Shown: one piece after another, positions 2,854 through 28,563 of the stretch | Layout: every line of letters begins with the position of its first letter | How positions within the stretch are numbered: position 1 is the stretch's first letter | DNA from: Henningerozyma blattae CBS 6284 | Lineage: Eukaryota; Ascomycota; Saccharomycetes; Saccharomycetales; Saccharomycetaceae | NCBI RefSeq assembly: GCF_000315915.1 | Contig: NC_020185.1 | Span: 1,860,001 to 1,924,000, forward strand | DNA: 64,000 bases | Direction of reading: 5' to 3' | The notes under the pieces: model-generated | Told to the model about the DNA's origin: nothing | What the model saw: the letters and a program-made list of their open reading frames with translations, nothing else | Database searches by the model: none | Program-made: the position numbers and the translations under genes

Positions 2854-3185
2854 GGTTATACGGGTTAGTTTCCTGGTATTTTTATTGAAGAATATTTATC
2901 CAATTGCTCTTGTCACAGATTTTATTTCATTTTATGCATGTCTACTATATGCTTTTACTTTTTGAAACCTTGGCGTTGTCTTAGGACAAGAATTCTCGAA
3001 AATTTCAGCAAGTTGTTTCCGCAGTTAAGATGACGCGTCAGTAACATGGTGTCAGAAAATGTTGAATAAACAGTAATACTGAAGTATTAAACTATATGCT
3101 ACAATATTGAGTTAGAAAACATCAATGTCGCGTGACTATACGTGTAATGTATAAATATATATATAATGAAGTATAATATAGATTT
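2854..3185. promoter_or_regulatory. EUG1-like promoter region
   Basis: 332 bp upstream of the PDI-like gene and downstream of GRH1. Two motifs stand out: the perfect 10-bp palindrome TGACGCGTCA at 3031-3040, and TACGTG at 3139-3144, which matches the core of the Hac1 UPRE-2 site. Induction by ER stress is a reasonable inference, not shown. Confidence 0.35.
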
Positions 3186-4340
3186 CTACTTGTGCAAGAT
3201 TGGTGGGGGGGTTGCGTCTTGGTCAACTTTCCTAACAGCACTTTGATCCTTACCTTCGTTGAAGTAGTCCATCATGTTAACTTTCTTTTCTTTCTTTTCA
3301 GCATGTGGTTTATTTTTCTTGGCTAGTGGAGGATGGACAACTGCATTTGGAATGAAAGTTTCTGAAGATTGTGGAGGCACTTGTTGAGGGGAAGTAATAG
3401 TGTTAGGTGAATAGGTAGAAGTTACATTTGGATTTGCAGGTGTTGGTGCCACCACCGTGCCATGTGGAGCAGGAATCCTATGAAGAAAACCATAGCCAAT
3501 ATTGCTGCCTAATCTTCCATCTGGGCCAATATTCACTGTGACTGGTCTGACGTTATCTTCAATTTTATTAAACACGTACAATATTAACGAATGGTTTGCT
3601 CTTGATCTGATGATATCCTGTAGCAATCCATTGCCACCAGTAGCCAGTAATCCATCTTGGCAGCCTATAATATAATCTTCATCAGGGATTAGGCCAGCCA
3701 CGAATGCTGGGCCATTTGGAATATTTAGATTTAAAATATGATAAGTAAAAGTAGAAGCGTTAAGTGGAGACCATTGGACTTTAAAGCTTAATTTTTGGAA
3801 TCCTTGTGAGTTTGAAGCATGTGTAGTAGTATTATTTGAGATATTTTCCAGGCTAATATCTGTTAGTTCATCCTCACTTGAATTTGGTAGTATTGATAAA
3901 TATTCATCACGAAAGGTTCCCCCTTTTGCAGACCAAATATTGAATTTAACAAAACTAGAGACGCTATTGTTCAATATTTCAAATATTTTATCATAATTTG
4001 GATATGGAGTATTATAATTATAAACCAATGGTAAAGGATTATCATTGATACCAACAATATGATCAAAATATGATTGCAATTGTAATTGACTTTCATCCAC
4101 GTACACGATACGCAACCCAGAAATAATGTTATTGTGCTTCTGTGTAAATTCAAATAGTGGTTGGGTCCCGGTCAAAGAGGGATCATCTGGACTATAATTA
4201 GGTGGTAACAATTGAGGTAATATTAAATTTGGAGGGATCGACTGGAAAAATGCATCTAATTGAGAATCCTGGGAAAACGATAAAGTATCCTGGACACTTT
4301 GTTCAATGGATTTTACTAAGGACTTAGCAATACGAAACAT
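3186..4340 (-). CDS. GRH1: Grh1, GRASP65/55 homologue
   Basis: 384-residue peripheral Golgi/ER-exit-site protein of the GRASP family. I start at the ATG at 4340, giving MFRIAKSLVKSIEQSV, an amphipathic N-terminus like that of S. cerevisiae Grh1, where acetylation and the helix promote membrane binding; upstream codons in frame lack an ATG. Two PDZ-like GRASP domains follow. Conserved stretches include KFNIWSAKGGTFRDEYLSI, FKVQWSPL, GLIPDEDYIIGCQDGLLATG and NIGPDGRLGSNIGYGFLHRI. The C-terminal region is low-complexity, rich in Pro, Thr and Lys. In S. cerevisiae it works with Bug1 in early secretory traffic and unconventional secretion. Neighbours match the EMI2-GRH1-EUG1 block. Confidence 0.95.
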   Translation of the reverse strand: MFRIAKSLVKSIEQSVQDTLSFSQDSQLDAFFQSIPPNLILPQLLPPNYSPDDPSLTGTQPLFEFTQKHNNIISGLRIVYVDESQLQLQSYFDHIVGINDNPLPLVYNYNTPYPNYDKIFEILNNSVSSFVKFNIWSAKGGTFRDEYLSILPNSSEDELTDISLENISNNTTTHASNSQGFQKLSFKVQWSPLNASTFTYHILNLNIPNGPAFVAGLIPDEDYIIGCQDGLLATGGNGLLQDIIRSRANHSLILYVFNKIEDNVRPVTVNIGPDGRLGSNIGYGFLHRIPAPHGTVVAPTPANPNVTSTYSPNTITSPQQVPPQSSETFIPNAVVHPPLAKKNKPHAEKKEKKVNMMDYFNEGKDQSAVRKVDQDATPPPILHK

Positions 4341-5780
4341 AATCAGTAGGTTGCTATGTCTTTGAGTTATTTTTTGCAGTTGCAAAAATATTACTTTTTT
4401 CACCTTAGGTATTTACATGCCAAAGAATTATTTTCTATTACAAGAGAAGCAATAAGTACCCGAAAAATAATCCTCACGTGATAGAATAAAAATTAGCTTG
4501 TGTTTATATTCACCAGCAATTGAGTGCTATGAATAAATATATACTCAAAATAATTTCTTGTACTTGTCAAAATTATTTGCTCAACAAGGTTACTTAATTG
4601 TTTCATTACACAGTTTAATGTTGATTAAGTCTCTATCTGGCAACTTTGTCAGCTGATTAATACATCCAATAAAGTCTAATTTCTTCTTGGCTATAAAAGC
4701 TAAATACAACGTTCAAGTGTTGAATAGTATATAGTTGCTAGCAATTTCCTAAATTTTATCTTTAAAATCCATTATAGTATTTGCACCAACTCCATCATTA
4801 AGAATTTGCCATATTCGTATTGCATCTATCACATCTAATCGGAGCTACAAATTCTTGAAAGATATCGTTTAATTTTTTTTCTATCAAGGTACCTACTACC
4901 TCACAGGCTGATATTTTAATTCAGACAGAGGGCATAAAAACCAGTATACCCTGATACAATATAAAAAGCTCTAATTCTTTCAATACTTCAAAATAACAGT
5001 ACCGGATACGTTTTTTCCAATTACCAATCTAGAAATGTTCTCGACATGTATAATATTTATATGGGTATATATATCTATGTAGTTGACGTCACTGTTTACT
5101 TATACTTCCAATAATAGCATTATGAGCCCTTACTGAATGTTTGACTAAATCCTTACTTTATCAGCTAATAACACAATTATCATATTTTCAGGAGGTTCCT
5201 GCGACCATTTAGGGAATACCTCAAAGAACCATGAACCATAATCTGTAATCTTTTTGCGTAGTATTTTTTCATGTCTGTATAACTTCCAACATTCTGAATT
5301 GACCCCGCATTTTTTTTCATTGGGTTTCCGCCTTAAGAAAACGGCGCAGAAACACCTATAATAATACTCCCCACTACAATTCCAAAAAGATTCACTGTTT
5401 TTAAAAGCAAGCTCCACTGTCTCCTGCACTTCAAAAATATCGATAAACTTACCTGTATTAACCTTCAAGTATGGAGCCGCTTATGTCATTTTGTTATATT
5501 CTAAGCTCGTACAACGTCTTCTCTGAATACAACATTCTCAGTACAGTTACCCGCACTTCTCACCACGCGCTGCATTTTTTCGCTCCAGGGGCGGTATATA
5601 TAAGCTATATAAGAAAGTGGACAACAGCAAGTTATACACAAAAGTCTGTAATAAAAAAAAGTATTTAAGCTTATTAGAAAAGTTACTAGATACAATTGAT
5701 AGCAACTAATATTGGAATCTATCAAACAAGCTTATAAATAATTATTAAACAAACACAACGATATACACTACACTGATCTT
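4341..5780. promoter_or_regulatory. divergent GRH1 / glucokinase control region
   Basis: 1.4 kb between divergent genes. A Cbf1-type box TCACGTGA is at 4474-4481, near GRH1. On the glucokinase side there is a Mig1-type site CCCCGCATTTT at 5303-5313, an STRE-like AGGGG at 5587-5591 directly before a TATA element TATATATAAG at 5594-5603, about 180 bp before the ATG. This fits glucose repression and stress induction, as known for EMI2 and GLK1 of S. cerevisiae. A doubtful small reading frame lies inside (5145-5468). Confidence 0.5.
5145..5468 (-). CDS. hypothetical 107-residue reading frame, doubtful
   Basis: An open frame from an ATG at 5468 with a Cys- and aromatic-rich product (SGEYYYRCFCAVFLRRKPNE). 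I recognise no family. It overlaps the Mig1-type site and upstream region of the glucokinase gene, so it may simply be promoter DNA that happens to be open. Kept only because it is the one frame over 100 codons in a long intergenic region. Confidence 0.12.
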   Translation of the reverse strand: MKVNTGKFIDIFEVQETVELAFKNSESFWNCSGEYYYRCFCAVFLRRKPNEKKCGVNSECWKLYRHEKILRKKITDYGSWFFEVFPKWSQEPPENMIIVLLADKVRI

Positions 5781-7301
5781 ATGTCGTTCGAACAACTTCA
5801 TAGAGAGACTGCCGCCAAACTAGACGATGCAGTAGATAAAATCTGTTCTCAATTGGTCGTAGAGAAGGAACAATTGAAGACCATGACTGAAGGGTTTATT
5901 GAAGCAATGGAAAACGGGTTAAACCATCCTAATTCTTCTGAGGTCAATTCATCCACAACACCATCTCCAAATTCTGCAGGTTTATCGATGTTACCATCTT
6001 TTGTTACGGGTTTACCAAATGGTACTGAACGTGGTATTCTATTAGCATGTGAATTGGGTACTATGCATTTCCGTATATGTTCTGTGGAATTGTTAGGAGA
6101 TCACACTTTCCAATTGAGACATGTCAAGTCACATTTACCACAAGAAGTCATTGAAGAGGATACTGCTTCAAGCGATAAATTATTCTCCTTTATGGCAAGA
6201 CGTACCTATGCTTTCATTAAGAGGGCTCATCCAGAAGTATTGGACCCACATGCAGGTGTCTCTATGAAAATGGGGTTCACTTTCACTTATCCTGTTGAAC
6301 AAACTTCTTTAAATGAAGGTATCTTGATCAGATGGACTAAAAATGTTCAAATTAAAGATACTGTAGGTAGAGATGTTGTTCAATTATTCCAAGATCAATT
6401 GGACTCTCAAGGTTTGGAAAGAATCCGTATTGTGGCCTTAACCAATGATACTGTAGGTACATTTTTGTCATTGTGCTATTCTTCTGGATCTTCTATGTCA
6501 AGTTTGGCCACTGGTGAAGTGGTTGAGCCTGTCATTGGTTGTATTATTGGTACTGGTACCAACGGTTGTTATATGGAATCTACAGAAAATATTGGGAAAT
6601 TACAACCGGAATTACGTGAAAGATTAATTAGAGAAGGTAAAACTAAGATGTGTGTCAATACAGAATGGGGGTCCTTTGATAATGAACTAAAATATATCCC
6701 AACTACGAAATATGATACTTTGATTGATCAAAAATTCTCATCAAATCCAGGTTTCCATCTTTTCGAAAAAAGAATTTCTGCCTTATATTTGGGTGAAATA
6801 TTAAGAAACATCCTATTAGACTTATACCAACAAGGTTTGATCTTAACCCAATATAGAACCGAAAGATCTCTACCACATCGTTTAAAGACTCCTTTTGAAT
6901 TAGGTTGTCAAGTTTTAGCTCATATTGAAATTGACGACTCTACCAACTTACGTGAAACAGAATTGACTCTATTGCAATCTTTAAGATTACCAACTACTCC
7001 ACAAGAACGTTATGCCATTCAAAAAATTGTTCGTGCTATTTCAAGACGTAGCGCTTATTTAGCTGCAGTTCCAATTGCTGCTATCTTAATGAAGACTGGT
7101 GCTTTAACGAAAAGATACCACGGTGAAGTGGAAGTTGGTTGTGATGGCTCAATTGCTGAATATTATCCAGGTTATAGATCTATGTTGAGACATGCTTTAG
7201 CTTTGTCACCAATTGGTACAGAAGGTGAAAGAAAAGTTCATTTAAGAATTGCCAAGGATGGTTCAGGTGTCGGTTCTGCCTTATGTGCTCTGGTTGCTTA
7301 A
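5781..7301 (+). CDS. EMI2: Glucokinase-family protein, EMI2/GLK1-like, with altered phosphate loop
   Basis: 506 residues, the full length of Glk1/Emi2. Most of the hexokinase fold is intact: GFTFTYPVEQTSLN sugar-binding region near 165-178, the catalytic Asp in LTNDTVGT (D223), GCIIGTGTNGCYME, and the C-terminal GCDGSIAEYYPGYRSMLRHAL nucleotide region. The N-terminal phosphate-1 loop, normally DLGGTN/HFR, reads ELGTMHFR (residues 91-98), so the Gly-Thr pair that contacts ATP phosphates is lost. Details such as GLILTQYR and LPHRLKTPF look more like Emi2 than Glk1. The gene forms the EMI2-GRH1-EUG1 block. Glucose phosphorylation is the family role; activity here is uncertain and a regulatory role is possible. 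Confidence 0.92.
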   Translation: MSFEQLHRETAAKLDDAVDKICSQLVVEKEQLKTMTEGFIEAMENGLNHPNSSEVNSSTTPSPNSAGLSMLPSFVTGLPNGTERGILLACELGTMHFRICSVELLGDHTFQLRHVKSHLPQEVIEEDTASSDKLFSFMARRTYAFIKRAHPEVLDPHAGVSMKMGFTFTYPVEQTSLNEGILIRWTKNVQIKDTVGRDVVQLFQDQLDSQGLERIRIVALTNDTVGTFLSLCYSSGSSMSSLATGEVVEPVIGCIIGTGTNGCYMESTENIGKLQPELRERLIREGKTKMCVNTEWGSFDNELKYIPTTKYDTLIDQKFSSNPGFHLFEKRISALYLGEILRNILLDLYQQGLILTQYRTERSLPHRLKTPFELGCQVLAHIEIDDSTNLRETELTLLQSLRLPTTPQERYAIQKIVRAISRRSAYLAAVPIAAILMKTGALTKRYHGEVEVGCDGSIAEYYPGYRSMLRHALALSPIGTEGERKVHLRIAKDGSGVGSALCALVA

Positions 7302-8109
7302 TTTTTTATATAGAACATCTCTTTAATGACTCTGCACTTTATAGTTTGTTTCTTTTCTAAATATTTGATTTTACGTACTTTATATTTATGTTGAACACTT
7401 GATTTTTGTTATTTTGATGTTTTACTCTTTAATTGTTTTATTTTCAACTATTTTACTTCTAATCAATTATTTTAATCTATACTAAAGGTTTAAATTTATG
7501 TAATAAATTTAAATATTATTCAAGTTATAATTCCTATTGAAAACCCTTTCTTTAAATATGAAAAAAAGTTCAAAACATTCAACATCAATATTTACATATT
7601 TGTCAAATAAATTATGTTCTGAATTGAAAGTAAAAACCAAGATGGTAATAAAAAACTGTAAATAAACCATTACTTTATACTTTTAGCAAAGAAAACTGTA
7701 AATATTTACATTTTTTTTCATAGCAGCATGTCGTTTTTTCCTACTTGGGTTTTTTATTGCCATGTATATATCCTAATTAGGATATATACATGGCCCATTA
7801 ACACGAAAAATCTACACGAAAATTTGAAAGAAAAAAGACAATTATACAAATAAAAATGTAAACAAATGATATTAAAAAATGTAAATACTCTTAGGTTCTC
7901 ACCACCACATTACTTATTTTCATGCCTATAATTTCAATCAAACAGCTGAGGGGAAAATATATGTCTTTAGTTAGTAATATACAGAATGTTTATTTATATT
8001 TATACAATTAGAAATCAGTTGTCAACATATATAAGTATAAATATTTATGCCTAAGTTGTTATTATTGCTATATTTTATTTTATATTATTTTTTTGGAATG
8101 CTCTTTCAT
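7302..8109. other. convergent intergenic region with recombination-enhancer-like cluster
   Basis: 808 bp between the 3' ends of the glucokinase gene and SPB1, so no gene promoter is needed here. It holds an alpha2-Mcm1 operator (7761-7792) and forkhead-type motifs GTAAATAAA (7658), GTAAATATTTAC (7698-7709), GTAAACAAA (7858) and GTAAATA (7881). I looked on both strands for a short a-factor gene ending in a CaaX box and found none. Confidence 0.55.
7759..7794. promoter_or_regulatory. alpha2-Mcm1-alpha2 operator 1, perfect 36-bp palindrome
   Basis: Two alpha2 half-sites (CATGTA at 7761, TACATG ending at 7792) flank a symmetric Mcm1 box CCTAATTAGG at 7772-7781. The outer GC/GC pairs extend the palindrome to 36 bp without a mismatch. 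Spacing is within one base of the 31-bp a-specific-gene operator of S. cerevisiae. It lies between two gene ends, not in a promoter; a role as a chromosome-arm control element is inferred. Confidence 0.85.
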
Positions 8110-10713
8110 TTAGTTTTTCTTCTTATGATGTTTCTTAGCAATTCTCTTCAATGCTCTTTGTTCGTTCTTCAGAACACCATCAACCATCTTATATTTACCT
8201 TTAATACCCTTAGGTCTACCTGATAAACCTTTGTTACTACCTGCAGCAACAACCAATGTAACCTTAGGCTTAGATCTTTGCTTCTTGGTAACTTTACGCA
8301 TCAATTTAGCAATTTCTTCAGACTTGTCTCTTTCAGATTTATCATTGTCATCATTAATTAAACCAGCCTTCTTCTTGATCTTCTCTAGTCTTGCAACAGC
8401 ACGCATCTTCTTTCTAGCTTTAGCTTCAGATACCTTCTTAATTGGTCTAGCATTCAACGCGCGTAACTTCTCTTTAATTGCCATAGCCGCTTCTTTAGTT
8501 ATTGGTCTATTGATCTTAGAATGTTGCTTCTCATCTTCAACAAACCATTCCGGTAAATTTTCTGTATCACGGAATGTGTATCTATTGAAACCTTCATCAA
8601 TCATATTATGTTTTGTCTTTTGGCCTAATGCTAATTGATGTGCTAATGTCATTGCTTCAACAGTAGCAATATCAATTTCTTTAGAATGCTTACTTTTCTT
8701 GGTTTGTTTTCTTTCTTCTTCAGAATCATAATCAGAATCCATTATATCATTTAAATCAGTGTTAGCACTATCATTAGCAACAATTTCAAAATCGTTGTCA
8801 CTATTACTTTCAGCATCACTGCTGTCAGATTCAGAGTTATTATCACTTTTCTTATCTCCAGTCGATATTGACATTTCGGAATGATTTCTTTTTCTTCCTA
8901 ATTTGGAAATATCACCAACAGCTTCAGAACCAACATCATTAACATTAAATTTACCTTTACCTTTTCCAATCGGTTCCATACCTGGTAAGTCAGCTGAAAC
9001 ATTTTCAAAAATTGGATCGTTGAATAACATTTTAGCTTTGTTACTTAGTTTGCCTTTCTCATCTTCAGATTGACTTTTTAATTTACTAATTAAATTATTA
9101 ATTGCTTCATCATCATCTGAATCAGATATGTCGGATGCTTCATCTTCTTCTACATACGCATCTGAATAGTCAATATCTTCATTTGCATCACCATCTGGTT
9201 GATTGTCAGTAAAACCTGTCCATTCCTCTTCGTGATCACCACCACGAGCTTGTTTTGCTCTAAACTTGGCATCTCTTTCCGATTTTCTTTCTTTATATTC
9301 ATTATACATCATATTCATCTCACTTTCCAAATCGTCTAAATTACTTAGATCATCACGTTCGGTGACTAAAGTTTCATCAATATGAATATCATTATCTTCC
9401 AATAATTGATCCTCTGTAAATACCATTCTCTTCTTACCCTTAGCAATCTTATCCAAAATACCAGTTTTCTCAGCTGTGTTTAAATTAAATAAGGAATCTT
9501 TACCAATGCTTGCAGCATCGATACCAATATCCTTTGGTGTCAGCATATTCATTTGCATTCTTGTTAACTCCTTTTGTTTAAGTTCATTCTTCTTTCTCTT
9601 TTCACGTTTATTCTTTAATCTTTGTTTCTCCTGTAAATTTTGTAATTCTTTCTCGATTTGTTCTTCCTCTGTCATTGGTTCAACAGTAATTTCTTCTTTA
9701 ACTACTTCACTTTCATCTTGGATATCTAATAATTCTCTGGCATATTTTCTCCATTTTAAAATCATTTTAAAGTCTTTCTTACCTAAAACCTTTAAATCCT
9801 CTATACAGCTTAAAAATTCTTTTGTAGTTTGTTTCATTTTCTTTAAAATCTGCCATTCAGTATTATTTTTATCAAATGTAAATTTATTCATTACACCTAA
9901 CATAGAAATTGGGTCTTCAGTTTTGACAAATTCCAAAATATCCGTTTCATGATACAATAAATTGTCACCTTCCTCATAACCCTGTCTCTTTCTCACCTTC
10001 TTTTCTGGGTTATAGATCCTAGATTCCATATTTTGTGGACCATCTGGTAATTCTTCAAAAACTTCCTTTGGATCTAATAACCTTGGGTCTATTCTTTTTG
10101 GAGCCTTAAAACCTTTACAAACAACAAAAATTTCTGCAGAAACATTTCTTGAAGCTGGTGGTTTTGTAGCTTCAACTTTTTCGAAAAACTGTTGAAATAG
10201 CCAGATAAGTTTATTATAATCCTTTGATCTGAATACCTTGGTGATGAAAGTACCATTAACAACTAAATTTTCAACTGCTAATTTTAAAGCTTGTAATGTT
10301 AAATGAGACTGGGTAAAAGCATCTTGAGCCCAGCCAAGACCGACATTTGGAGCACCATCATGTAAAACAGTATCAGCTTTCCAGGTCTTCATATAACCTC
10401 TAAGTTTAGATCTACAGTCTTCAGTCGTAATATCACTTTGGAAAGTAATGACATTTGGCATAGGCTTCATTGGGACAATATCAACACCAATAATTAAGGA
10501 ATTGATGGGGCATAATTTGGAGGCAACTTGACACCACGAACCTGGAGCAGCACATAAATCGATAACTACCTTGGATTTCTCTAAGAAATGACCATATTTT
10601 TCATTAATTTGAATGATTTTAAATGAAGAACGAGCACGGTAACCTTTTTCTTTAGCTAAATAATAGTATCTATCTAAACGACCTTTACTATTTTTCTTCT
10701 GAGTTTTACCCAT
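8110..10713 (-). CDS. SPB1: Spb1, 27S pre-rRNA 2'-O-methyltransferase
   Basis: 867 residues, close to the 841 of S. cerevisiae. The N-terminal FtsJ/RrmJ methyltransferase domain (about 1-215) shows the SAM motif VIDLCAAPGSWCQVA (49-63), VLHDGAPNVGLGWAQDA and FITKVFRSKDYN, which together carry the K-D-K-E type catalytic residues. A long charged middle and the Spb1 C-terminal domain follow, with NLPEWFVEDEKQHSKINRPI and a Lys-rich end. It methylates G2922 in the A-loop of 25S rRNA in nucleolar pre-60S particles. Its promoter carries PAC and RRPE motifs typical of ribosome-biogenesis genes. In S. cerevisiae the recombination enhancer adjoins this gene. Confidence 0.97.
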   Translation of the reverse strand: MGKTQKKNSKGRLDRYYYLAKEKGYRARSSFKIIQINEKYGHFLEKSKVVIDLCAAPGSWCQVASKLCPINSLIIGVDIVPMKPMPNVITFQSDITTEDCRSKLRGYMKTWKADTVLHDGAPNVGLGWAQDAFTQSHLTLQALKLAVENLVVNGTFITKVFRSKDYNKLIWLFQQFFEKVEATKPPASRNVSAEIFVVCKGFKAPKRIDPRLLDPKEVFEELPDGPQNMESRIYNPEKKVRKRQGYEEGDNLLYHETDILEFVKTEDPISMLGVMNKFTFDKNNTEWQILKKMKQTTKEFLSCIEDLKVLGKKDFKMILKWRKYARELLDIQDESEVVKEEITVEPMTEEEQIEKELQNLQEKQRLKNKREKRKKNELKQKELTRMQMNMLTPKDIGIDAASIGKDSLFNLNTAEKTGILDKIAKGKKRMVFTEDQLLEDNDIHIDETLVTERDDLSNLDDLESEMNMMYNEYKERKSERDAKFRAKQARGGDHEEEWTGFTDNQPDGDANEDIDYSDAYVEEDEASDISDSDDDEAINNLISKLKSQSEDEKGKLSNKAKMLFNDPIFENVSADLPGMEPIGKGKGKFNVNDVGSEAVGDISKLGRKRNHSEMSISTGDKKSDNNSESDSSDAESNSDNDFEIVANDSANTDLNDIMDSDYDSEEERKQTKKSKHSKEIDIATVEAMTLAHQLALGQKTKHNMIDEGFNRYTFRDTENLPEWFVEDEKQHSKINRPITKEAAMAIKEKLRALNARPIKKVSEAKARKKMRAVARLEKIKKKAGLINDDNDKSERDKSEEIAKLMRKVTKKQRSKPKVTLVVAAGSNKGLSGRPKGIKGKYKMVDGVLKNEQRALKRIAKKHHKKKN

Positions 10714-18593: not shown

Positions 18594-20135
18594 TTATAAT
18601 TTCAAATTTGTGTTTAGGGCATGCTCTAGATCAGAGACCGATATACCTCGAGATATAACAGCAGCATCCGTATTTTGATTATGCGTTTGCAAATTTGACT
18701 GGTAATGAAGTGGTGGCTCATAATGAAATTCATTTGAATGATTTAAGAGATCTCCGTAATTTGGCTTATTTTTTATTGGTTTAGGTGCTTTTGTTGAAGC
18801 TGCCTGTGTATTTGTTACAGATGAGGAAATTGATAATCTAGGTGTTGAAATTAAATTCAATATATTCCAATTACTAAAGACGGATGATTCTTTGTTTGAG
18901 GAAGGTAATGTATCTGTCGAGGGAGGATTAGGAGATTGGGATTCTGTTTTCAATTTTTTGGGTGTTGGCTGTTGTACGTATAAATTCAGCAAATCTACTG
19001 AATTAACTCTCATTTGATTTCGAGTATGTTCTGATGGTATTATTGTAGTAGTATTTAATTTTGAAATCATTGGGTTATACGTCAAGGAAACATTATTTGA
19101 TGATACGGAAGAAACTGAACGCAAATTTTTTTTCAATGTCAAATTTAAGAGAGAAGAAGGTGGCTTTAGAGCGGGTAAGGGTTGAATAAATTTCATATTT
19201 GATTTTTCCACAGACAAGATACTTTCATGAGAATTAAATTTCCGTAATGGTTCTGAAGTATTCTTAATTGATGAAGCTATTTTTGGAGTTGAGACAAATA
19301 TTGTATCTTGATCTGATATGCACGTAGGATCATCGTATTCATCATCATTATCATATCCATCCGGGAATTGAATTGACAATCTATTATTAGTTTTAAAGAG
19401 TGAATAATGTAATGGATCCATAGAATTTTTATTTCTTGTATTTGCTACTGAGAATGTTGGCTCTTCGAATGATTGAATTTTCACTGGAGAAATATCTGAC
19501 AACAATTCATTATTTTTAGACTTTTTCGAATTAAAATTTTTATAAGGCTTACTTTCTTTTTTATTTGATGATAACAATTTGTTGTAACTCGATCTATGTT
19601 TCAATTTCAAAGGAGATTCCAAATCGGGCTGGGGATGAGTATTCTGATTATTATTATGTTTCTGTCGCTGAAGGATCTTTAATGGACGAGGTTGAAATCC
19701 ATCAGTAATCTTTGAAAGTGAATCATTTGAGTGACTTGATTTATTTGATAAAGGTGAAGATCCATTTGTGACATTTTCTTGAATAGCAGATAATTCATTC
19801 ATCTTAATACTTAATGAATAAAATTCTGTTACTAGTTGCTGAACATATGCGTGACTATTGGTGTCATTCCCTGCAACATCAGAATCCGCTAAATTATAAG
19901 CATTCTGTTTTTCAATCTTATCTCGGATATATTGGGCTCTTAGATACAGAGAGTTCAGTTGAAACATATACCGATTATAATCTCTCTCAGCTTGTTCCAA
20001 GGATTCTGAAGTTGATGCACGTAGTCCATCACGATTCTGAAACCCTTGCTGATCTTTGATCCATAGGTCTAGTTGTAATACAGCCTCTTGAGCCTTAGTC
20101 AAGAGTCTTATTGACACTTCTTCCTGGAGCGCCAT
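18594..20135 (-). CDS. VAC17: Vac17, vacuole-specific Myo2 adaptor
   Basis: 513 residues from the ATG at 20135 (MALQEEVSIRLLTKAQEAVLQ); in-frame codons further upstream offer no ATG. The N-terminal 110 residues are helical, with LTKAQEAVLQLDLWIKDQQG and a coiled-coil-like stretch, as in Vac17, which binds the Myo2 tail there and Vac8 in its middle. The rest is Ser/Asn-rich and disordered, with likely PEST-type stretches that in S. cerevisiae allow timed degradation. Similarity is concentrated at the N-terminus, so the call rests partly on position: in S. cerevisiae VAC17 sits between MRC1 and HML (with CHA1). Here it is the last gene before the mating cassette. Confidence 0.85.
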   Translation of the reverse strand: MALQEEVSIRLLTKAQEAVLQLDLWIKDQQGFQNRDGLRASTSESLEQAERDYNRYMFQLNSLYLRAQYIRDKIEKQNAYNLADSDVAGNDTNSHAYVQQLVTEFYSLSIKMNELSAIQENVTNGSSPLSNKSSHSNDSLSKITDGFQPRPLKILQRQKHNNNQNTHPQPDLESPLKLKHRSSYNKLLSSNKKESKPYKNFNSKKSKNNELLSDISPVKIQSFEEPTFSVANTRNKNSMDPLHYSLFKTNNRLSIQFPDGYDNDDEYDDPTCISDQDTIFVSTPKIASSIKNTSEPLRKFNSHESILSVEKSNMKFIQPLPALKPPSSLLNLTLKKNLRSVSSVSSNNVSLTYNPMISKLNTTTIIPSEHTRNQMRVNSVDLLNLYVQQPTPKKLKTESQSPNPPSTDTLPSSNKESSVFSNWNILNLISTPRLSISSSVTNTQAASTKAPKPIKNKPNYGDLLNHSNEFHYEPPLHYQSNLQTHNQNTDAAVISRGISVSDLEHALNTNLKL

Positions 20136-20577
20136 TAATTCCTTTTTATTCCTCTTTTGTTTCTTTGAATTGGTTTCCCTCACACAGGCTATAGGAGCAC
20201 TGGTTTGAAGTAGTTAACGATAGTAATAATAGTAGTAATAATCTGTTTTGTCTACAGATCTTATAGTTGTATCTTTAAATCTTGTCTGGAAAATCCTCAC
20301 TTGGTTTGGTGAAAAGCTTATATAAATCTCGAACTCATACCATATTTGATCGGATCGACATATTTCCGCTTTGATTTTGAATCTTTTGGGACATCAAGAA
20401 TTTTTGTCAGTCACGAAATTATCACGTGATCAAAAATTCAAAATTTTAGATGGCATGCACTAAATGATTAAATTCTTTGGCACTTTTGCATCTACATCAA
20501 GTTAAATTGGAATTTTTTTCCCAGAAATTATGAGAGTTTTGGCTTGTAACTTATGAGTTGATTTCCTATGCAAGTTA

Positions 20578-20591
20578 TCGTTCAAAATGAC
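20578..20591 (-). promoter_or_regulatory. Abf1 site
   Basis: On the minus strand this reads GTCATTTTGAACGA, an exact fit to RTCAYTNNNNACGA. It could serve the VAC17 promoter about 440 bp away, or be part of a silencer-like element for the cassette, since S. cerevisiae HM silencers use Abf1. The choice is open. Confidence 0.6.
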
Positions 20592-20787
20592 TTGAAAGGA
20601 TTTTAATTTTAAACTCAAAAATTAAAAATGTTTGAAAAATTCACAGTCAGTGAAGTTATAACTTAATAACTATACTTTTTTTGCTTGGAAATAGATAGGA
20701 GCTACAATAAAATGTAAACAAAAAAACTAATAGCAACACTTTCACTCCCAACTGTTCGCATTTACACTATCCTAAGTATACAATTAC

Positions 20788-20817
20788 ATTTACATTTACA
20801 CTTACATTTACACTTAC
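20788..20817. repeat. hexamer tandem array ATTTAC/ACTTAC
   Basis: Five consecutive hexamers: ATTTAC, ATTTAC, ACTTAC, ATTTAC, ACTTAC, preceded by a shortened ATTAC. On the minus strand each is GTAAAT or GTAAGT, close to the forkhead core. It lies 100 bp from operator 2. Confidence 0.8.
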
Positions 20818-20914
20818 CCTCTAGTTGAATTAGGAATTGTATCGTTTGTTTATACTTTTGAAAATAGAACACGATAAAATTATACTACCAATACTGTAAA
20901 CATGATAACTCAGT

Positions 20915-20950
20915 GCCATGTAAATATCCTAATTAGGTCATTTACATGGC
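20915..20950. promoter_or_regulatory. alpha2-Mcm1-alpha2 operator 2
   Basis: CATGTAAA (from 20917) and TTTACATG (to 20948) flank the same Mcm1 box CCTAATTAGG (20928-20937), with the same 32-bp geometry and the same outer GC pairs as operator 1. The inner arms differ (ATAT versus TCAT), so it is not a perfect palindrome. The nearest gene start is VAC17, 780 bp away; no a-specific gene is visible. Confidence 0.85.
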
Positions 20951-21756
20951 TGCTAGCCTTTTTCGCTCCACGCGTTTCGGATTTTCCTGTCTAATTTTTG
21001 GCGAACATTTTTGACAGTCGGTCCGAGAGAAAAATTTTGTCAAGAGTATTTCAGTAGGCGACCTCAAAAAAGTTTCAAGATGGAAAAAAGAAGAAGGTAA
21101 CTGTATATATTAGAATGAATATTCGTGTTTGTTATTGCACTTTGTGTTTATTTCTGCAGCGGCTGATTACTTCGTTAAGAGCATGATAGGATGTTTACTT
21201 TGTTTAGGTTGTTTTGAAGATGGTACTCTCGTTGTTATTCACCATAGGCGTGTTATGATGATATAGCAAGTTGTTTGTTTGTTGTACTGACTCTCAGGAC
21301 AAACATCAAGCAATACACTCAAGATGCTTTTACATCTTTGTGTTTGTTTGCATAAACCAAAGTGCCTAGGTCTGGTTCATTTAGTGTGTCAATATAGCTG
21401 TTGCTGCTACGCTAACATATGAGGAAAATTTTTGTGTTGTTCGCTGCTTTGTCAGGACGCTGCTTTACAATGGGACTACATTCTATGCACTTTATTATCA
21501 TCTGCTGCTTTACTATCCCAAGATATACAAGTTTTTAATGCTCAAAATGTAAACAAGCAAATTGTTTATGTTGTGGATTATGGTTTGCTAAAATTTCCGT
21601 TTCAGGAATTTCGATGTTTGGTTTGTTGCAAGATACAATTGATATAATAAGAGGGAGACAACCATAGAGAGGGAGATGTAGAGTAGGATATAGAGGAGTA
21701 TATGGATTACTAGTAATATTGATAATGATATGCAAGGCCGAGTGGAAGTGACACAA

Positions 21757-22362
21757 TTACAAGAGTAGATGCATCTCCCTCTCGTAAGTTTGGCCTAGCC
21801 ACTCCACAAACCCACACTTGGGCTTGACAAAATTATACTCCTGCGAAAAAAAGTTCCATACATTCTGTTGGTTTGGATTTTCGTGCCATGCCGTGGATAA
21901 TAAACTTGACAAAATATTTTGTTTGAGGCCGTATCCGAATTGAGAATTATATGCCCGAAAGGCTATAAATCCATTTAGTACTCGCTCACTATTTACAGGA
22001 TTAGGATTGCTATTTACATTATTTGGAAAGCCATTATCAAATAAACTATTATTATCATTATACTCATCTTCGTAGAATAAATCAGATAGATAATTATCAT
22101 CATTATCCATAGTATATTCATTTAACATATGCTGTGTCGATATTATCTTCTGTTTTTCAACTTCAATGTTGTATAATAGAGTAGTAGGTGGAAATGGGAT
22201 CTTAATATTGTGGTTCTTATACAGTAGTATCGATATTCCTCTAGTTTCATTGAATTTGTTTCTCATAGATTTAGAATTTGTTTTCATTCTAATATTCTTA
22301 TTAAGTTTCAAATTTACTTTGAATAGTGCTTTTTTCGTGTGATTCATTGTTTTATTAGACAT
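21757..22362 (-). CDS. MATALPHA1: MATalpha1 / HMLalpha1, alpha-box activator
   Basis: 201 residues. Alpha1 activates alpha-specific genes together with Mcm1 (and Ste12). The alpha-box DNA-binding domain is at about 129-190: LNGFIAFRAYNSQFGYGLKQ, then LSSLLSTAWHENPNQQNVWN, then FSQEYNFVKPKCGFVEWLGQ. The N-terminal part carries the conserved IPFPPTTLLYNIE motif and an Asp/Glu/Asn-rich insertion at 85-110. The C-terminus is shorter than in S. cerevisiae by some residues after the alpha-box. It is divergent from alpha2 over a 347-bp shared promoter. As in S. cerevisiae, alpha1 lies on the Z side, facing VAC17. Whether it is expressed depends on whether the locus is MAT or a silent donor. Confidence 0.97.
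   Translation of the reverse strand: MSNKTMNHTKKALFKVNLKLNKNIRMKTNSKSMRNKFNETRGISILLYKNHNIKIPFPPTTLLYNIEVEKQKIISTQHMLNEYTMDNDDNYLSDLFYEDEYNDNNSLFDNGFPNNVNSNPNPVNSERVLNGFIAFRAYNSQFGYGLKQNILSSLLSTAWHENPNQQNVWNFFSQEYNFVKPKCGFVEWLGQTYEREMHLLL
21831..21845 (-). other. HO-site-like sequence at the expected Y/Z junction
   Basis: On the minus strand CGCAGGAGTATAATT, in the alpha1 codons for SQEYNF. The S. cerevisiae HO core is CGCAACAGTATAATT, so 13 of 15 positions agree; the two differences fall in the AC next to the cleavage point. It marks the likely Y/Z boundary. Cutting by an HO protein is inference. Confidence 0.6.
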
Positions 22363-22709
22363 CTAGCTACGTTAGATTATTGTTGTTCTTATCACTGGAA
22401 TCTTGGGAACAGAAAATATTTAGAAATAAGAATATGAATTCTTATTTCTATTTCTATTTATATTATTATTACATGACTATATTATTTGATACATTTCTTT
22501 ACATGGCCCCAAAGATCCGATTCGGAAACTTACATCCGTGCTACATCAGAGAATTTTGAAACTTATTGTTTTAGATTTACAGAATAAAGAAATTTATCAT
22601 TACGTTTGAAGTATAAATATAAGATTGGTTTTAATCAGAAGATTTTGTCTTTCTTAAATTTATTCTTCCAATTCAAGTAATCAACCCAAAGTAATATAAA
22701 TAATACAAG
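22363..22709. promoter_or_regulatory. bidirectional alpha1/alpha2 promoter
   Basis: 347 bp. A Rap1-type UAS TACATCCGTGCT is at 22531-22542 (10 of 12 to the ribosomal-protein-type Rap1 site); S. cerevisiae MATalpha also uses Rap1 here. The site TGATACATTTCTTTACATGG at 22487-22506 matches the a1-alpha2 haploid-specific operator in 12 of 15 fixed positions with correct spacing. A further alpha2-like half-site TTACATGA lies at 22470-22477. Repression of alpha1 in a/alpha diploids is the expected function. Confidence 0.65.
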
Positions 22710-23554
22710 ATGAATAAGATACCTATCGATACCTTACTGAATCCTACCAATTCAGAGAACATTAAAGAACAGTATGTTCAGTTAACCTCGTCTCAGTTTT
22801 TTTAATAGCACAACTACTAACACATTATTATTTCGTTTTATTATTGGCTCGTACTTATTAATAGATTACAAAACCTCAACAAAGAACTCCTTTCTATGTG
22901 TTCTCGTTTACCATCTGCTAAAAGTATGGAAGAAACTCAACTTTCAGAAATATTAAAAGTATGTATACTATCATTTTGTTTTTAAATTACTTGTGCAACT
23001 ACTAACCCCAAATATAGTTTTTGACAAAAACAATCAAACACGAACCCCTTGGAAAAGAGGAAACCGAACTCGTCACCACAACCGTCCAGCTGTCCACCGT
23101 CTTGTCCAGCCTCGTGAAGGAGGCCAGGCAGCTCCACCGCCTCCACCACTCTCAATCCACCCACAACCCACGCGTCTTCAACGTCCTCACCCAGCACATG
23201 ATGTCCAACTCCAACTCAACCTCCACCTCCCCCCACTCCAACTCACTCCCAAACTCACCCTCCACAAAAAAATCAACCACACCCCTAACAAATCCCTCAC
23301 CACCCTACTACTACTCCTCCTCCTCCCCCAAATCCCTCTCCCCACCCCTACAGCACACTCCCAGCCATCGTGGCCACCGCCTCCCAAAACATACCCTCAT
23401 CCCCCTCGAAAAATGGTTCCTCCACAACAAATCACACCCTTACCTACACAACTCTGACCTCCAAGCCCTCACAACACAATCCTCTCTCTCCAAAACACAA
23501 GTCAAAAACTGGATCTCCAACCGCCGTCGCAAAGAACGCTACAAATTGAACTAA
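22710..23554 (+). CDS. MATALPHA2: MATalpha2 / HMLalpha2, homeodomain repressor, three exons
   Basis: Three exons, 22710-22771, 22865-22958 and 23018-23554, encode 230 residues. Splice signals are perfect (see introns). The product opens with MNKIPIDTLLNPTNSENIKE, close to the S. cerevisiae N-terminus, then a helical region (NKELLSMCSRLPSA) and the coiled part TTTVQLSTVLSSLVKEARQL that mediates dimer/Tup1 contacts. A Ser/Asn/Pro-rich linker leads to a TALE-class homeodomain ending in LSKTQVKNWISNRRRKERYK, whose WISNRRR helix contacts DNA. It represses a-specific genes with Mcm1 and haploid genes with a1. Exon 3 has about 57% G+C (23041-23400) and C-ending codons, unlike exons 1-2 and the neighbours. 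Confidence 0.96.
22772..22864 (+). other. alpha2 intron 1
   Basis: 93 nt. Donor GTATGT at 22772, branch point TACTAAC at 22815-22821, acceptor TAG ending at 22864. It splits a Gln codon (CA/A) after codon 20, and splicing keeps the frame. Confidence 0.95.
22959..23017 (+). other. alpha2 intron 2
   Basis: 59 nt. Donor GTATGT at 22959, branch point TACTAAC at 23000-23006, acceptor TAG ending at 23017, only 11 nt after the branch point. It falls between codons 52 and 53. Confidence 0.95.
23204..23352 (+). other. 149-base G-free, C-rich tract in alpha2 exon 3
   Basis: No G occurs on the + strand from 23204 to 23352; within 23221-23340 I count 65 C in 120 bases. It encodes the Ser/Thr/Pro/Asn linker before the homeodomain. 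C-rich sequence resumes after the stop codon at 23611-23671. Confidence 0.9.
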
Positions 23555-26500
23555 ACTCCTAAACTGAGTGTATACACCTAACTATTAACACATTTTTTGA
23601 TAAATATCCAGTGCCTCCTCACCTCCTCCTCCTGTCCTACTCCCCCTAGCATCCCTCTCACTAGGGCCTATAGACTGTTAAAACATTGCTTTCTAATCGC
23701 AATGATAAATTCTTATAAACTTATACTATAAATATAAATTCGTTATCAGGTATATATTTTTAATAATTAGCGATTTAGTCAGATTCCAAAACTCCGAGAT
23801 TTTTAAGGGTTTCTTTGTTTGCCTTTATTTCGGATCTCTGTAGGAAAACATTCTTTAATAGGATAAAACACCGAACAAGGGATAATTAAACAATCGAAAG
23901 GAAATACAATGCGAAAGTTTTTTGTTGACGAAACAAAAAAAACCAACTTCTATAAAGCAGTGGCTACACTTTCAGAGCCCCTAGAATAATTATTCAAGTA
24001 CTTGAAGCTAAACAGAATTGAAAAAAACTTCCTGGTGATATTTTTCTTACAAAGTTCTAGGTGTTCATGCTTAATTCCAAGAAATCTACAGACAATATCC
24101 TAGTTAATTTCAATTGATCAAAAATTTATCAAGATTGTAAAATTTAGTTTAACATATTTTTTTATTCATTTTGGCTATAAATTAGGCAAAAATATCCTAC
24201 CCTGAGATAATTTCTTGATATGCATCAATATCACAAGCACAAATGGGATGAAAATAACTAATGTTTCAAAGAATATTATATTTCAGAAATGTTCACTACC
24301 TAAGTACATTAGAATGTCAGTAATGAACTAGGAAAATATACAAAGCTGTAACACAAAAGAATATCTGAGGATGTCACCATCAAACAGGTCTCTATAGTTA
24401 AAATAAACAGCTCTTATTGCAAAAACCTTTATATTCTACTTTTGTTTGTATTTTGATAACTTTTGGAGGTTTTACCTTAAGTACTTTCTTGATTATTCAT
24501 TTTGGGACATTTACAAGCACAGAATACACCAGAAAAACAGTTGTAGAATTAAACTACTCTAATTTAATATTAAGCACCCTTCTTGCTGAGTAACAAAGTA
24601 TTTACACTTCTGAGCTTCTTTCAAACACACTATTATAAAGGGTTCTATAGTTTTTAAAACCCTTGTGCTAAACCTTCAAAGTAATGTATCATTTTTTTTG
24701 AAAAAAATAATTAAGATGAATATTTTTTTCAAAAACGAGTTTTAACCGGTATTTGAGATTTTTTTCATTTTTTCTTCAATTTGAAAGTTCTTCAAATATT
24801 AATTGTACCCTAAAACAGTTAAATTCTAGTTCATTCTACGACAAGTTGTTAAATTATTTAAAAAATTCATGGTAATATAAAATTTACTTTTTTACCCAAT
24901 ATTAAGAACTCTGATTTATTTGAAATTTAGAACAATGATATCTCAATCGTTAGACGGGTGAATTAAACATGGGTAATATACACATATTTTGAATACTATT
25001 ATTGAGAATAACGGTATCCTATTAAATTGGAAACTTTCAAAATTCAAAATTTTAGAATATTATCGATAAAAAATTAAACTCTTAAAACAACATCTTTTAT
25101 AATGTAACTATTACAGTAACTTAGAAAAGCAATGCTGGGAAGGGTAAACTTAGCAGTGGATCTGCTTATTGGTATTTTTAAGAAGGACTAAAGTGAACGT
25201 TGATCTTGGCTCAAGGACTGAGATTAGATACAATATTTATCAAAGTGTTAATAAAAATTTAAGCCTCATATGAGAAATCTTTATGAAAAAAATTCCATTT
25301 ATCAAATTATTATAATATTAAAAAAGTTTCTCAAATAGATATCAGATTCTAGAACACAAAGCACAAAAAACCAGAACTAATTAAAAGTTTTACAAGAAGT
25401 AAGGGTTTCTAAAAAAAACAGTTCAGTTCACATACTGTAGAGAATTCAAAATTAGTGAAAACTATTCAGAAAGAAGTATTGGTTAGAGTATCTAAGAGGT
25501 TTAATAGTCTTGATGAAACCAACTCTATTCTGTTAGGAAAGAAACACAGCAAAGACAATTATGTCTAATGCTGTCTTCACTAAATTGCAGAATGTGTATA
25601 ATTTAGCAAAAGGAGCATACTACAGTACTATGGATTATTGTAACTCTATACCTTAGTTACATCACTGAATATGTAACGAAGATACACAGACATTTTGAAA
25701 AAAACACCGTAAAAACTTCAAAAAAGAGAACAAACTTATATCAAGAATATAAAATACCTGACTTTTTTTTTTAATTCCTCTGGGAGTTATGTTAGTTAGT
25801 GCTTCAGTCACTTAGTTCACCAAGGAAATTCGTAGCTATGTACTTTTCTCTGATTTGCATTAAATGCTGTACAAAAATAAACATGATACTTGAATGGACT
25901 TAAAATATATTTTTTCTAAACCAGTAAATAATTGCTACTTTTTTATTATAAACCATTTAAAAACCCAGGGAATAGTTCAGTTGAAACAAATGAATATTGG
26001 TGTTAATTTTTGTAAGATATTTTCATGAATTTTATTTCATAATCAAAGGAACTATCCTGGCTTTTTTGAAGCAAGGTAAGATAGTATGTAAGATAGTTAG
26101 GATTTAAACTACATATTAAACTGAATTACGGGTATTAAAAATATACTTAGATGATAATAAACCAGAATACGTATAATATTATATTATAACTTACACATAT
26201 TAATATACTGAGAATACTATTTATTCTCGGATTTAGTATTTCATGAATTTCAGAACCACGTGTAATGAGATATCTCTTCTGCACAGCATTTCATATATCT
26301 TAAATATGCATTTCTATAAATAATTAATAAATCAAATAAAATAGTATAGTGCCACCGCCTTATACCGTTTATTTACCAGATAAAGAGGTTCTCCGTTTAA
26401 CAATATAATCAGAATACGGAAAATCCATGATTGGTCGATAAAAGCAGCAACACGGAGATTAAAGTTTTTCACCTTGAAGTTGCTGATAAATATTACTATG

Positions 26501-28563
26501 CTGCATTACTAACTCCTTATAACATGACTACAAATTACAATACGATAAAATTTTAAAATGTATAGCAAATTCATGGACTAATATCTATTTATGTGTTTGT
26601 AAAGCATATATTAGAAACTTGGTTCTAAAATAGAATTGTTGCATAATAAACCTGTACTTGATACTTTCAATTGGGTTCTCTATAGTGGGATTATTATTTT
26701 TCTACTTTTAAATTTTTCTAATATCACCGTTTACTTAAGAAATTTTTTAAAAAAAGTATTTTGGTTGGAATATTTGATATTACATTTGACTCTGGATAAT
26801 TGACTACAGTTTTAGAATATTTTTATTTAAAAATTTATAAATGAATTAAAAGTAAATATGGGTTAGTATTTATCAGTAATTTTAGTACCATCTTTTAGGT
26901 ACACAACTTAATGGAAATAGTTCCTATTACAGAAACATTCTCTTCACGGAATACTATTAAATTTGGAAACTGTCTCCGCATTCTTTATACTTTTCGTTCA
27001 TATTTTCGTAGTTTGGTAAGGAAGAAACAAATTCGCAACCATTTGGAAATATCTATTTCCCACTAGTTAACCAAAAAGAAAAACATTTGGCCAGCTATCT
27101 TATTATTATTTATTTTCAAAATAAAGGCAAGCTGTAGCAAAAAAAGAACCAGTACTTTTTACCAAGTATCTAAAATATTGGGGTAATATTTCTAAATTTG
27201 TTTTCACAGAAAGTGTAATATCTTACAACATTTTCTCTAGATAATTCATAATTATATTCTGTGAAAGATCTAGCTAGAGATATCAATTCAAAGAAATTTT
27301 GTGGTAACCAATATAATTACAACAAAACAAACAACCAAACTAGTTACAACTTACAACAATAAACACCTTAAGATTAATGGCTAAAAGAAGTTGGATTGCA
27401 AAAAATATTTTGTTTTTGTTAAATATCCACCTAAAATCAAGCATTTTTCTCCAACAAATTATAAATTATTGAAGTGATATCTAGGTAGAAAAAAATTAGA
27501 AGAAAACTTGCTAATACTTACAAATTGACGAAGGGTCTAGTCGTACACCTTCAAACAATTCTTAATATTCTTAGTAAAAAAAGTAATATATTGAATTACA
27601 ATTTTTTCAAATGCTCTTTAGAGAAAGCTAAGTTGCATTTTATAATTTTGGCTGCCAATTTTTCTTAAAAGACCAAAGTTATTTTACTATTTTAGCTGTT
27701 TTGACACTTCTTTTGCAAGAATTTTATGTGGGATAGAGGATCAGACATTAAAATGAATAGCCTGAAACTTAATTTATAAAAACATGATAATATATAATTA
27801 AAGGATTCGTAATCCTTTAGATGGTTGAAATACATCAAGGAATATTGTATACACCGATATAATAAAACATAGCTATTTTATTATTCATTTTAATAATACA
27901 TTTATCATCTTATCGTACCAGAACAACATAGTAAAAGATAATAAAAAAAATACACAAACAGTTAGTTATAAAAGATAAATCCTTAGTTTTAGAGATTAAT
28001 TAAAGTAACTTACTTCATTGAGTGTATAACGTGAAGATAATAAATAAGATAAAGGAGAATATTCTACATAAATACAGCAGTATTATTCTGTGAAGCCTTA
28101 GCAAAGATAACAATACTATTAAACGATAGATATAAGCATAAAAAGATTCTATCCTTCGAAAGTACAATAAAGTCGAAAGACAAGGTACTCGGCATCCAAG
28201 TAGACTACATTAACAATAGCACAATTACAATAGTACTATCCACAAATACAATCTTGTGGTTCATTAAAAATAAATTCCCTAGAAAATTAAATCAGAGGTA
28301 ATGGTTTAGTAGTTACTTGCCGTTATTTTGTACTCAGTTCACCAAACAATACGTTTTCAAAAAGCAGACTATATATGAAAATATCCAGATATTTCTCTCA
28401 AGTATGAAAACCTTTTAGCATTGGAGAGCCTTTCTGGAAATATTACTGCTTGAGATTAAGACTAGAAATAATTATAGGAACTATTACAGGGGACATATAG
28501 TATGGTCTAACATAGTAAAAAATAGCTCAATATAGAAAAGTTAAAATACCCTGCTCTTAAAAA
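23555..28563. other. 5-kb gene-free region on the X side of the cassette
   Basis: No reading frame of useful size on either strand, no tRNA-like fold or box, no telomere-type TG repeat, no LTR ends and no point-centromere motif that I can see. The first 120 bp hold C-rich sequence continuing from alpha2; from about 23675 on it is uniformly AT-rich with many short A and T runs. It ends at the 3' end of PEX13. Ordinary spacers in this window are 0.3-1.5 kb. Confidence 0.7.

Follow-up and report, generated by a model that had tools for sequence, protein, structure and literature searches.

The window analysed here is a 64-kb stretch comprising bases 1860001-1924000 of the 2.70-Mb contig C1 of Henningerozyma blattae. 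Near its left end, an intergenic gap of 808 bp with a G+C content of 22% (7302-8109) is flanked by the 3' ends of two genes, a hexokinase/glucokinase on the plus strand (5781-7301), which by synteny we take to be of the GLK1/EMI2 type, and on the minus strand SPB1 (8110-10713), encoding an rRNA methyltransferase. Among the best 120 of 4777 matches, SPB1 has no 100% identical partner apart from itself, and the named Naumovozyma, Vanderwaltozyma and T. phaffii proteins are 74-78% identical to it. The gap harbors a perfect 36-bp palindrome (7759-7794, core 7761-7792), identified by a palindrome search and by the layout that it shares with operators of a-specific genes. It is the longest perfect palindrome of the window, the runner-up measuring 18 bp. 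The original prediction had placed an exact 36-bp palindromic alpha2-Mcm1 operator at this position, between two convergent gene ends. All parts of this claim were borne out, since the palindrome is exact and the longest in the window, the 3' ends of the hexokinase/glucokinase gene (plus strand) and SPB1 (minus strand) face it from either side, and its layout is that found at 11 a-specific genes of the same genome. In the following, the palindrome is termed the RE1 operator, and the stretch of about 7589-7887 in which it lies the candidate element RE1.

Around the RE1 operator, forkhead-type GTAAAYA words are found as GTAAATA at 7589-7595 (minus strand), 7658-7664 and 7881-7887 (both plus strand), as GTAAACA at 7858-7864 (plus strand), and as a double forkhead palindrome, TGTAAATATTTACA (7697-7710), which contains two overlapping GTAAATA words (7698, plus strand; 7703, minus strand) and is present at two places genome-wide. 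The four forkhead-type motifs previously proposed (7658, 7698-7709, 7858 and 7881) are thus all present in the form GTAAAYA, and the word at 7589 is additional. Counting the palindrome as two, the gap 7302-8109 contains six GTAAAYA words compared to a mean of 0.83, and six were reached in none of 2000 dinucleotide shuffles. Moreover, GTAAATA (five times) is the most frequent in the gap of all 105 words that can be made from its letters. As sequence words, forkhead motifs therefore cluster around the RE1 operator. Two copies of CACGAAA, which we take to be the Swi4/Swi6 box (SCB) consensus, are located on the plus strand at 7802-7808, starting 10 bp after the operator core, and at 7815-7821; two SCB words in the gap were reached in one of 2000 shuffles.

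The genome itself, searched over 14,041,469 bases in 10 contigs, served as the control for the operator type. On base composition alone, the exact pattern CATGT-N6-CC-N6-GG-N6-ACATG is expected 0.008 times per 14.04 Mb, and it was found without mismatch at four places: RE1, a second site beside the silent cassette HML (RE2, described below), a BAR1-type gene, and C7:819421, where the operator score is 10.0 compared to 26.9-36.6 for the sites taken as operators. Allowing up to two mismatches at the 32-bp spacing, 21 places were obtained versus 4 for the reversed pattern; eight of these are accounted for by the HML-side pair and by six a-specific genes, and the other 13 score no higher than 18.5. 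The six 32-bp operators precede genes for a BAR1-type aspartyl protease, a STE6-type ABC transporter, ASG7 (presumed from its neighbors SET2 and a TOS1-type gene, that is, by synteny), an AXL1-type M16 peptidase and two a-factors. Operators that are one base shorter (31 bp) precede STE2, AGA2 (PF17366) and three further a-factor genes; the two a-factor genes of the 32-bp group were named by eye against S. cerevisiae a-factor and are presumed to be such. With the 31-bp spacing, the search matched 18 places in the forward and 18 in the reverse direction, compared to 8 and 9 for the control. Those at STE2, AGA2 and the three a-factor places were examined, and further operators of the 31-bp type may exist. 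All 11 a-specific operators lie 156-450 bp from the ATG. Because STE2 was found by its family and the other ten of the 11 genes were found beside operator matches, the list shows the purpose of the operator type and not the full set of a-specific genes. An alpha2-Mcm1-type operator accompanies every one of the five a-factor genes, which are located at C1:304620, C1:425082, C1:572881, C2:1161495 and C10:109974; S. cerevisiae has two a-factor genes.

With a score matrix derived from the 32-bp sites of the six a-specific genes, RE1 scored 26.9 and RE2 31.0, compared to 27.0-36.6 for the six sites themselves (19.3-31.1 in leave-one-out scoring) and at most 13.5 for shuffled copies of 14 stretches. 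RE1 is the lowest scorer among the eight 32-bp operators. Nevertheless, since both HML-side sites score like the a-specific ones and above the shuffled copies, their assignment to the alpha2-Mcm1 operator type is well supported at the level of sequence. The two HML-side operators are also the most self-complementary of the eight (RE1, 32/32 positions; RE2, 28/32; the six a-specific operators, 18-24/32), and they differ from the a-specific operators in their surroundings. Within 200 bp, RE1 is accompanied by six GTAAAYA words and two SCB boxes, and RE2 by two GTAAAYA words, one of them inside the operator, and one MCB-type box. At the 11 a-specific operators, a single GTAAAYA was found within 200 bp in two cases (STE2 and one a-factor gene, in the latter inside the operator), the remaining nine being without one, and neither SCB nor MCB words were found within this distance of any of the 11. 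The contrast was weaker for the looser word RTAAAYA, with six copies at RE1, three at RE2, and 2, 2, 4, 2, 1, 0 and 1 at seven a-specific operators.

At 21656-23539 the window contains a silent cassette of the HML type, which carries alpha information, is 1884 bp long and is 99.9% identical to the MAT sequence C1:1727887-1729770. It encodes MATalpha1 (21757-22362, minus strand; alpha box, PF04769) and an alpha2-type homeodomain frame (23198-23554, plus strand) of 118 amino acids that ends early at the cassette edge. From the same ATG, the frame extends to 149 amino acids at MAT and HMR, and HML alone would therefore give no full-length alpha2. Four genes separate RE1 from HML, namely SPB1, a PRD1-type gene, MRC1 and VAC17 (18594-20135, minus strand); all of these, VAC17 included, are presumably neighbors of HML in S. 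cerevisiae too. On the far side, HML is adjoined by a frame-poor stretch (23555-28563, 5 kb, frames below 100 amino acids), and a similar stretch lies beside MAT (2889-9910 of the extracted region L023, 7 kb, frames below 90 amino acids), which contains two tRNA genes near its far end.

The second alpha2-Mcm1-type operator, RE2 (20915-20950, core 20917-20948), is identical to RE1 at 32 of 36 bases. The end of its core is 708 bp from the HML cassette, and 13.1 kb separate it from RE1. Both operators are located in the HML arm, and no further alpha2-Mcm1 operator was found inside 7302-8109. An ACGCGT word, which we take to be the MCB-type consensus, starts 22 bp after the RE2 core (20970-20975). 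GTAAACA words are present on the plus strand to the left of RE2 (20714-20720) and beside its operator (20896-20902), together with a short (TTACAN)n hexamer array (20784-20812, plus strand), longer versions of which adjoin MAT and HMR. The original prediction had included neither RE2 nor the HML cassette, and at RE1 it had listed neither the forkhead word at 7589 nor the two SCB boxes.

Two further cassettes were found outside the window: an alpha cassette at C1:1727887-1729896 and, at C7:267082-268753, an HMR cassette, whose translation shows, on inspection by eye, an a1-like homeodomain on the minus strand. The possibility that the cassette in the window is MAT was considered and rejected, as the other two cassettes each have more sequence in common with C1:1727887 than with one another. 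The shared lengths are 1884 bp between the C1 cassette and that in the window, and 668 bp of X between the C1 and C7 cassettes compared to 542 bp between the window and C7; the Z match to C7 is 132 bp for both. Since this pattern fits the recipient of conversion, C1:1727887 was assigned as MAT. Along 1884 bases MAT is 99.894% identical to HML, and along the 668 bp of X it is 100% identical to HMR, so that conversion must have been recent. RE1 is 13,862 bp from HML and 137,863 bp from MAT, which lies to its other side on the same contig, giving the order MAT - RE1 - HML. HMR is located on a different contig from HML and MAT, and all three cassettes are away from contig ends.

Besides the three cassettes, this species has an open HO-type frame of 583 amino acids with Hint and LAGLIDADG domains (C2:57832-59583), and judged by these sequences mating-type switching looks alive. 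FHA and forkhead domains occur together in at least two proteins, the FHA domain having been looked for in two of the five forkhead matches, and the genome contains four MADS-box matches. A point-centromere pattern, run in order to place the centromere relative to MAT and HML, gave 7 candidate matches in the 10-contig genome, of which only C1:1073704 looks AT-rich by eye.

Forkhead clusters are a property of the mating-type loci and not of RE1 alone. As background, 1573 overlapping intergenic windows of 400 bp were counted, covering 103 kb chosen around the cassettes and a-specific genes and hence not random. The 33 windows with at least three GTAAAYA words were all located at RE1, at both HMR flanks, at the HML flank with RE2, or at one MAT flank. 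The observed count was reached in none of 1000 shuffles for RE1 and for the HMR X flank, in 2 for the HMR Z flank, in 3 for the HML flank with RE2, in 6 and 21 for the MAT flanks, and in 699 for the other HML flank. Directly beyond the X side of HMR, C7:268754-269300 has six GTAAAYA words in 547 bp (0 of 1000 shuffles) and no alpha2-Mcm1 operator was seen in it; a tRNA-Asp gene is present at the far end of this flank (L025:1897-1968). In the 40 kb around MAT and HMR (L022-L025), the operator matrix found no site above 12.7. A weak operator-like site with exactly this score lies on the HMR Z side (C7:266162-266193; 8663-8694 of L024), where it overlaps an SCB. Since no operator was seen at the clusters of HMR and MAT, the GTAAAYA words may have a different function, for instance in silencing, origin firing or replication. 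The HMR-side cluster may also act as an enhancer for HMR itself, as would be fitting for a donor located on another chromosome. Arrays of (TTACAN)n with at least five units occur at seven places genome-wide. Three of these adjoin the three cassettes, in each case on the Z side and with the same orientation; those at MAT and HMR are C1:1727633-1727835 and C7:265334-265464.

From this arrangement it is likely that RE1 is a recombination enhancer (RE) that in a cells favors HML as donor and in alpha cells is switched off by alpha2-Mcm1. An RE-like element had been predicted here, and the sequence tests made were favorable, with an HML-type cassette 13.9 kb away beyond SPB1 and MAT on the same contig; binding, cell-type control and an effect on donor choice at RE1 are what we infer from them. 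In MATa cells, Mcm1 alone would occupy the RE1 palindrome and keep the stretch open, while several Fkh1-type proteins with forkhead and FHA domains would bind around the palindrome and SBF (Swi4/Swi6) would bind the two CACGAAA boxes. Upon cleavage of MAT by HO, the FHA domains would grip phosphorylated proteins at the break, bringing HML-alpha, 14 kb from RE1, to MAT and turning the a cell into an alpha cell. In MAT-alpha cells, alpha2 would join Mcm1 on the palindrome, RE1 would be closed and HML unfavored, and HMR-a on the other chromosome would then be used as the donor. RE2 probably constitutes a second part of the same control, because the S. cerevisiae RE also has two operators. Counting against such a role, sequences nearer the donors than the RE can be deleted in S. 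cerevisiae with donor preference unaffected, according to the accessible text of PMC6420890.

The strongest competitor to the enhancer reading, which we nevertheless consider unlikely, is that the RE1 and RE2 operators drive an unrecognized a-specific unit, either a small protein or a non-coding RNA, from an ordinary promoter and leave donor choice unaffected. The 11 other operators taken as genuine all sit 156-450 bp from an ATG, and small frames are present near RE1, the larger ones being of 53 and 58 amino acids; near RE2 no frame exceeds 39 amino acids. The 53-aa frame, on the minus strand from 7670 and 90 bp to the left of RE1, has a hydrophobic start. A word search found no homologue for it, but as such a search misses short, fast-evolving proteins this is weak evidence. 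The 58-aa frame, 254 bp to the right, runs antisense into the 3' end of SPB1. We rejected the idea of a small a-specific gene, such as one for a-factor, at the operators, since none of the small frames in 7201-8300, in 20136-21757 or within 500 bp on either side of the operators ends like an a-factor, and no recognizable a-specific coding gene was found within 500 bp of RE1 or RE2. The claim that the palindrome controls no ordinary promoter also agrees with the location of the a-specific genes that were found: the BAR1, STE6, ASG7, AXL1, STE2 and AGA2 types and the five a-factor genes are elsewhere and have operators of their own there. That both operators occur in the HML arm, 13.1 kb apart, is a further argument against a pair of ordinary promoters. 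The S. cerevisiae RE is itself transcribed according to the accessible part of PMC6736312, giving rise to R1L/S RNAs and to RDT1, a transcript specific to MATa that has a 28-aa frame, and transcription from RE1 would in any case be compatible with enhancer function.

Less probable still is a reading in which the forkhead words mark an Fkh-timed replication origin in the convergent gap, the Mcm1 core helping the origin and cell-type control being incidental. Replication origins are frequently found in convergent gaps, those of S. cerevisiae are acted on by Fkh1/2 and Mcm1, and clusters of the same type lie beside HMR and MAT; a lone Mcm1 site, however, needs no two perfect alpha2 half-sites at the a-specific spacing, and neither the two SCB boxes nor the 13.9-kb distance to HML would be expected of an origin. 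We give equally little credit to the notion that the HML-side operators and the forkhead clusters form a silencing or boundary system of the cassettes unrelated to donor choice. Both GTAAAYA clusters and (TTACAN)n arrays are indeed found beside all three cassettes, the unsilenced MAT included, but four genes and 13.9 kb separate RE1 from HML, the operator matrix exceeds 12.7 nowhere in the 40 kb around MAT and HMR, and SCB boxes have no obvious silencing role. Finally, a lucky palindrome in an AT-rich gap is hardly credible, for although a G+C content of 22% favors AT-rich words, base composition predicts only 0.008 exact operators per genome, and the forkhead and SCB counts were reached in 0 and 1 of 2000 shuffles, respectively.

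If the enhancer reading is extended to HMR, donor choice could be a contest of two enhancers on two chromosomes, a suggestion that we put forward tentatively and with more doubt than confidence. The two-part, alpha2-repressible combination of RE1 and RE2, 13 kb apart, would act for HML, and the operator-free forkhead cluster at C7:268754-269300 would act for HMR in both cell types, winning when the HML enhancer is shut. The accessible text of PMC6420890 raises the possibility of an HMR-adjacent enhancer of unknown nature in S. cerevisiae, of which the HMR-side cluster would, if the suggestion is true, be the counterpart. With a forkhead cluster lying next to HMR, this yeast allows a direct test of whether an HMR-side enhancer exists, and since HMR is on another contig the species separates the effects of an enhancer from those of simple distance.

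The RE is a textbook example of a cell-type-controlled element that steers recombination. The lineage of this yeast split from Saccharomyces soon after the whole-genome duplication, and an RE1-like combination in it would mean either that an old RE has moved to the other side of SPB1 or that the combination arose on two separate occasions. Among the titles and passages seen in full-text literature searches, none describes an S. cerevisiae-type RE in Tetrapisispora or elsewhere outside Saccharomyces.

Among known systems, the elements SRE2 and SRE3 of Schizosaccharomyces pombe are alike in being cis elements at the silent donors that steer donor choice, with two enhancers in competition, but they act via Swi2/Swi5 in heterochromatin, and no alpha2-Mcm1 or forkhead logic is described for them in the accessible text (PMC6420890). 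C. glabrata has, in the accessible part of PMC7591073, HML and MAT on one chromosome and HMR elsewhere; it shares with the present species the location of HMR on another chromosome, yet donor preference is absent and HML is used whatever the mating type, which counts against the RE reading. Within the genome analysed here, the 11 a-specific operators have the CATGT...CC-N6-GG...ACATG layout in common with RE1 and RE2; unlike these, they are positioned 156-450 bp upstream of a-specific genes, and the six 32-bp ones are less self-complementary.

The closest parallel is the S. cerevisiae RE, which is organized into regions A to E, with region C also holding an operator. In the sections of the literature accessible to us, it is described as having an alpha2-Mcm1 operator, several sites for Fkh1 and, within region C, a conserved SCB, and as acting via the Fkh1 FHA domain, being portable, and being shut in alpha cells by alpha2-Mcm1 (PMC3320585). 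It is located between KAR4 and SPB1, with the operators DPS1 and DPS2, the latter being required for recruitment of Sir2 and condensin (PMC6736312). The element lies between HML and MAT (PMC7591073), at a distance from HML given as 17 kb (PMC3320585) or, for an RE described as bipartite, as about 14 kb (PMC13144730). By these partial accounts, RE2 resembles the DPS2/RDT1 promoter in being a second alpha2-Mcm1 operator on the HML side, within a possible two-part layout (PMC6736312, PMC13144730). It differs in being 13.1 kb off and only 708 bp from HML, with an MCB nearby, and no RDT1-like gene was recognized. Several features also set RE1 apart: as predicted, it adjoins SPB1 downstream, between the convergent 3' ends of the glucokinase-type gene and SPB1, whereas the S. 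cerevisiae RE is upstream of SPB1, between KAR4 and SPB1; its operator is perfectly palindromic, the 6-base arms being equal; it has two SCBs, compared to the single one in the accessible descriptions; and HML and HMR are internal to contigs here, with HMR on another contig. The left part of the S. cerevisiae RE (DPS1), as far as it is described in the accessible text, nevertheless shares with RE1 the operator, the SCB, the forkhead sites, SPB1 as a neighbor, a distance of ~14-17 kb from HML and a position on the MAT-facing side. Leaving shared descent apart, RE1 would thus, on the sequence tests made, work like the S. cerevisiae RE.
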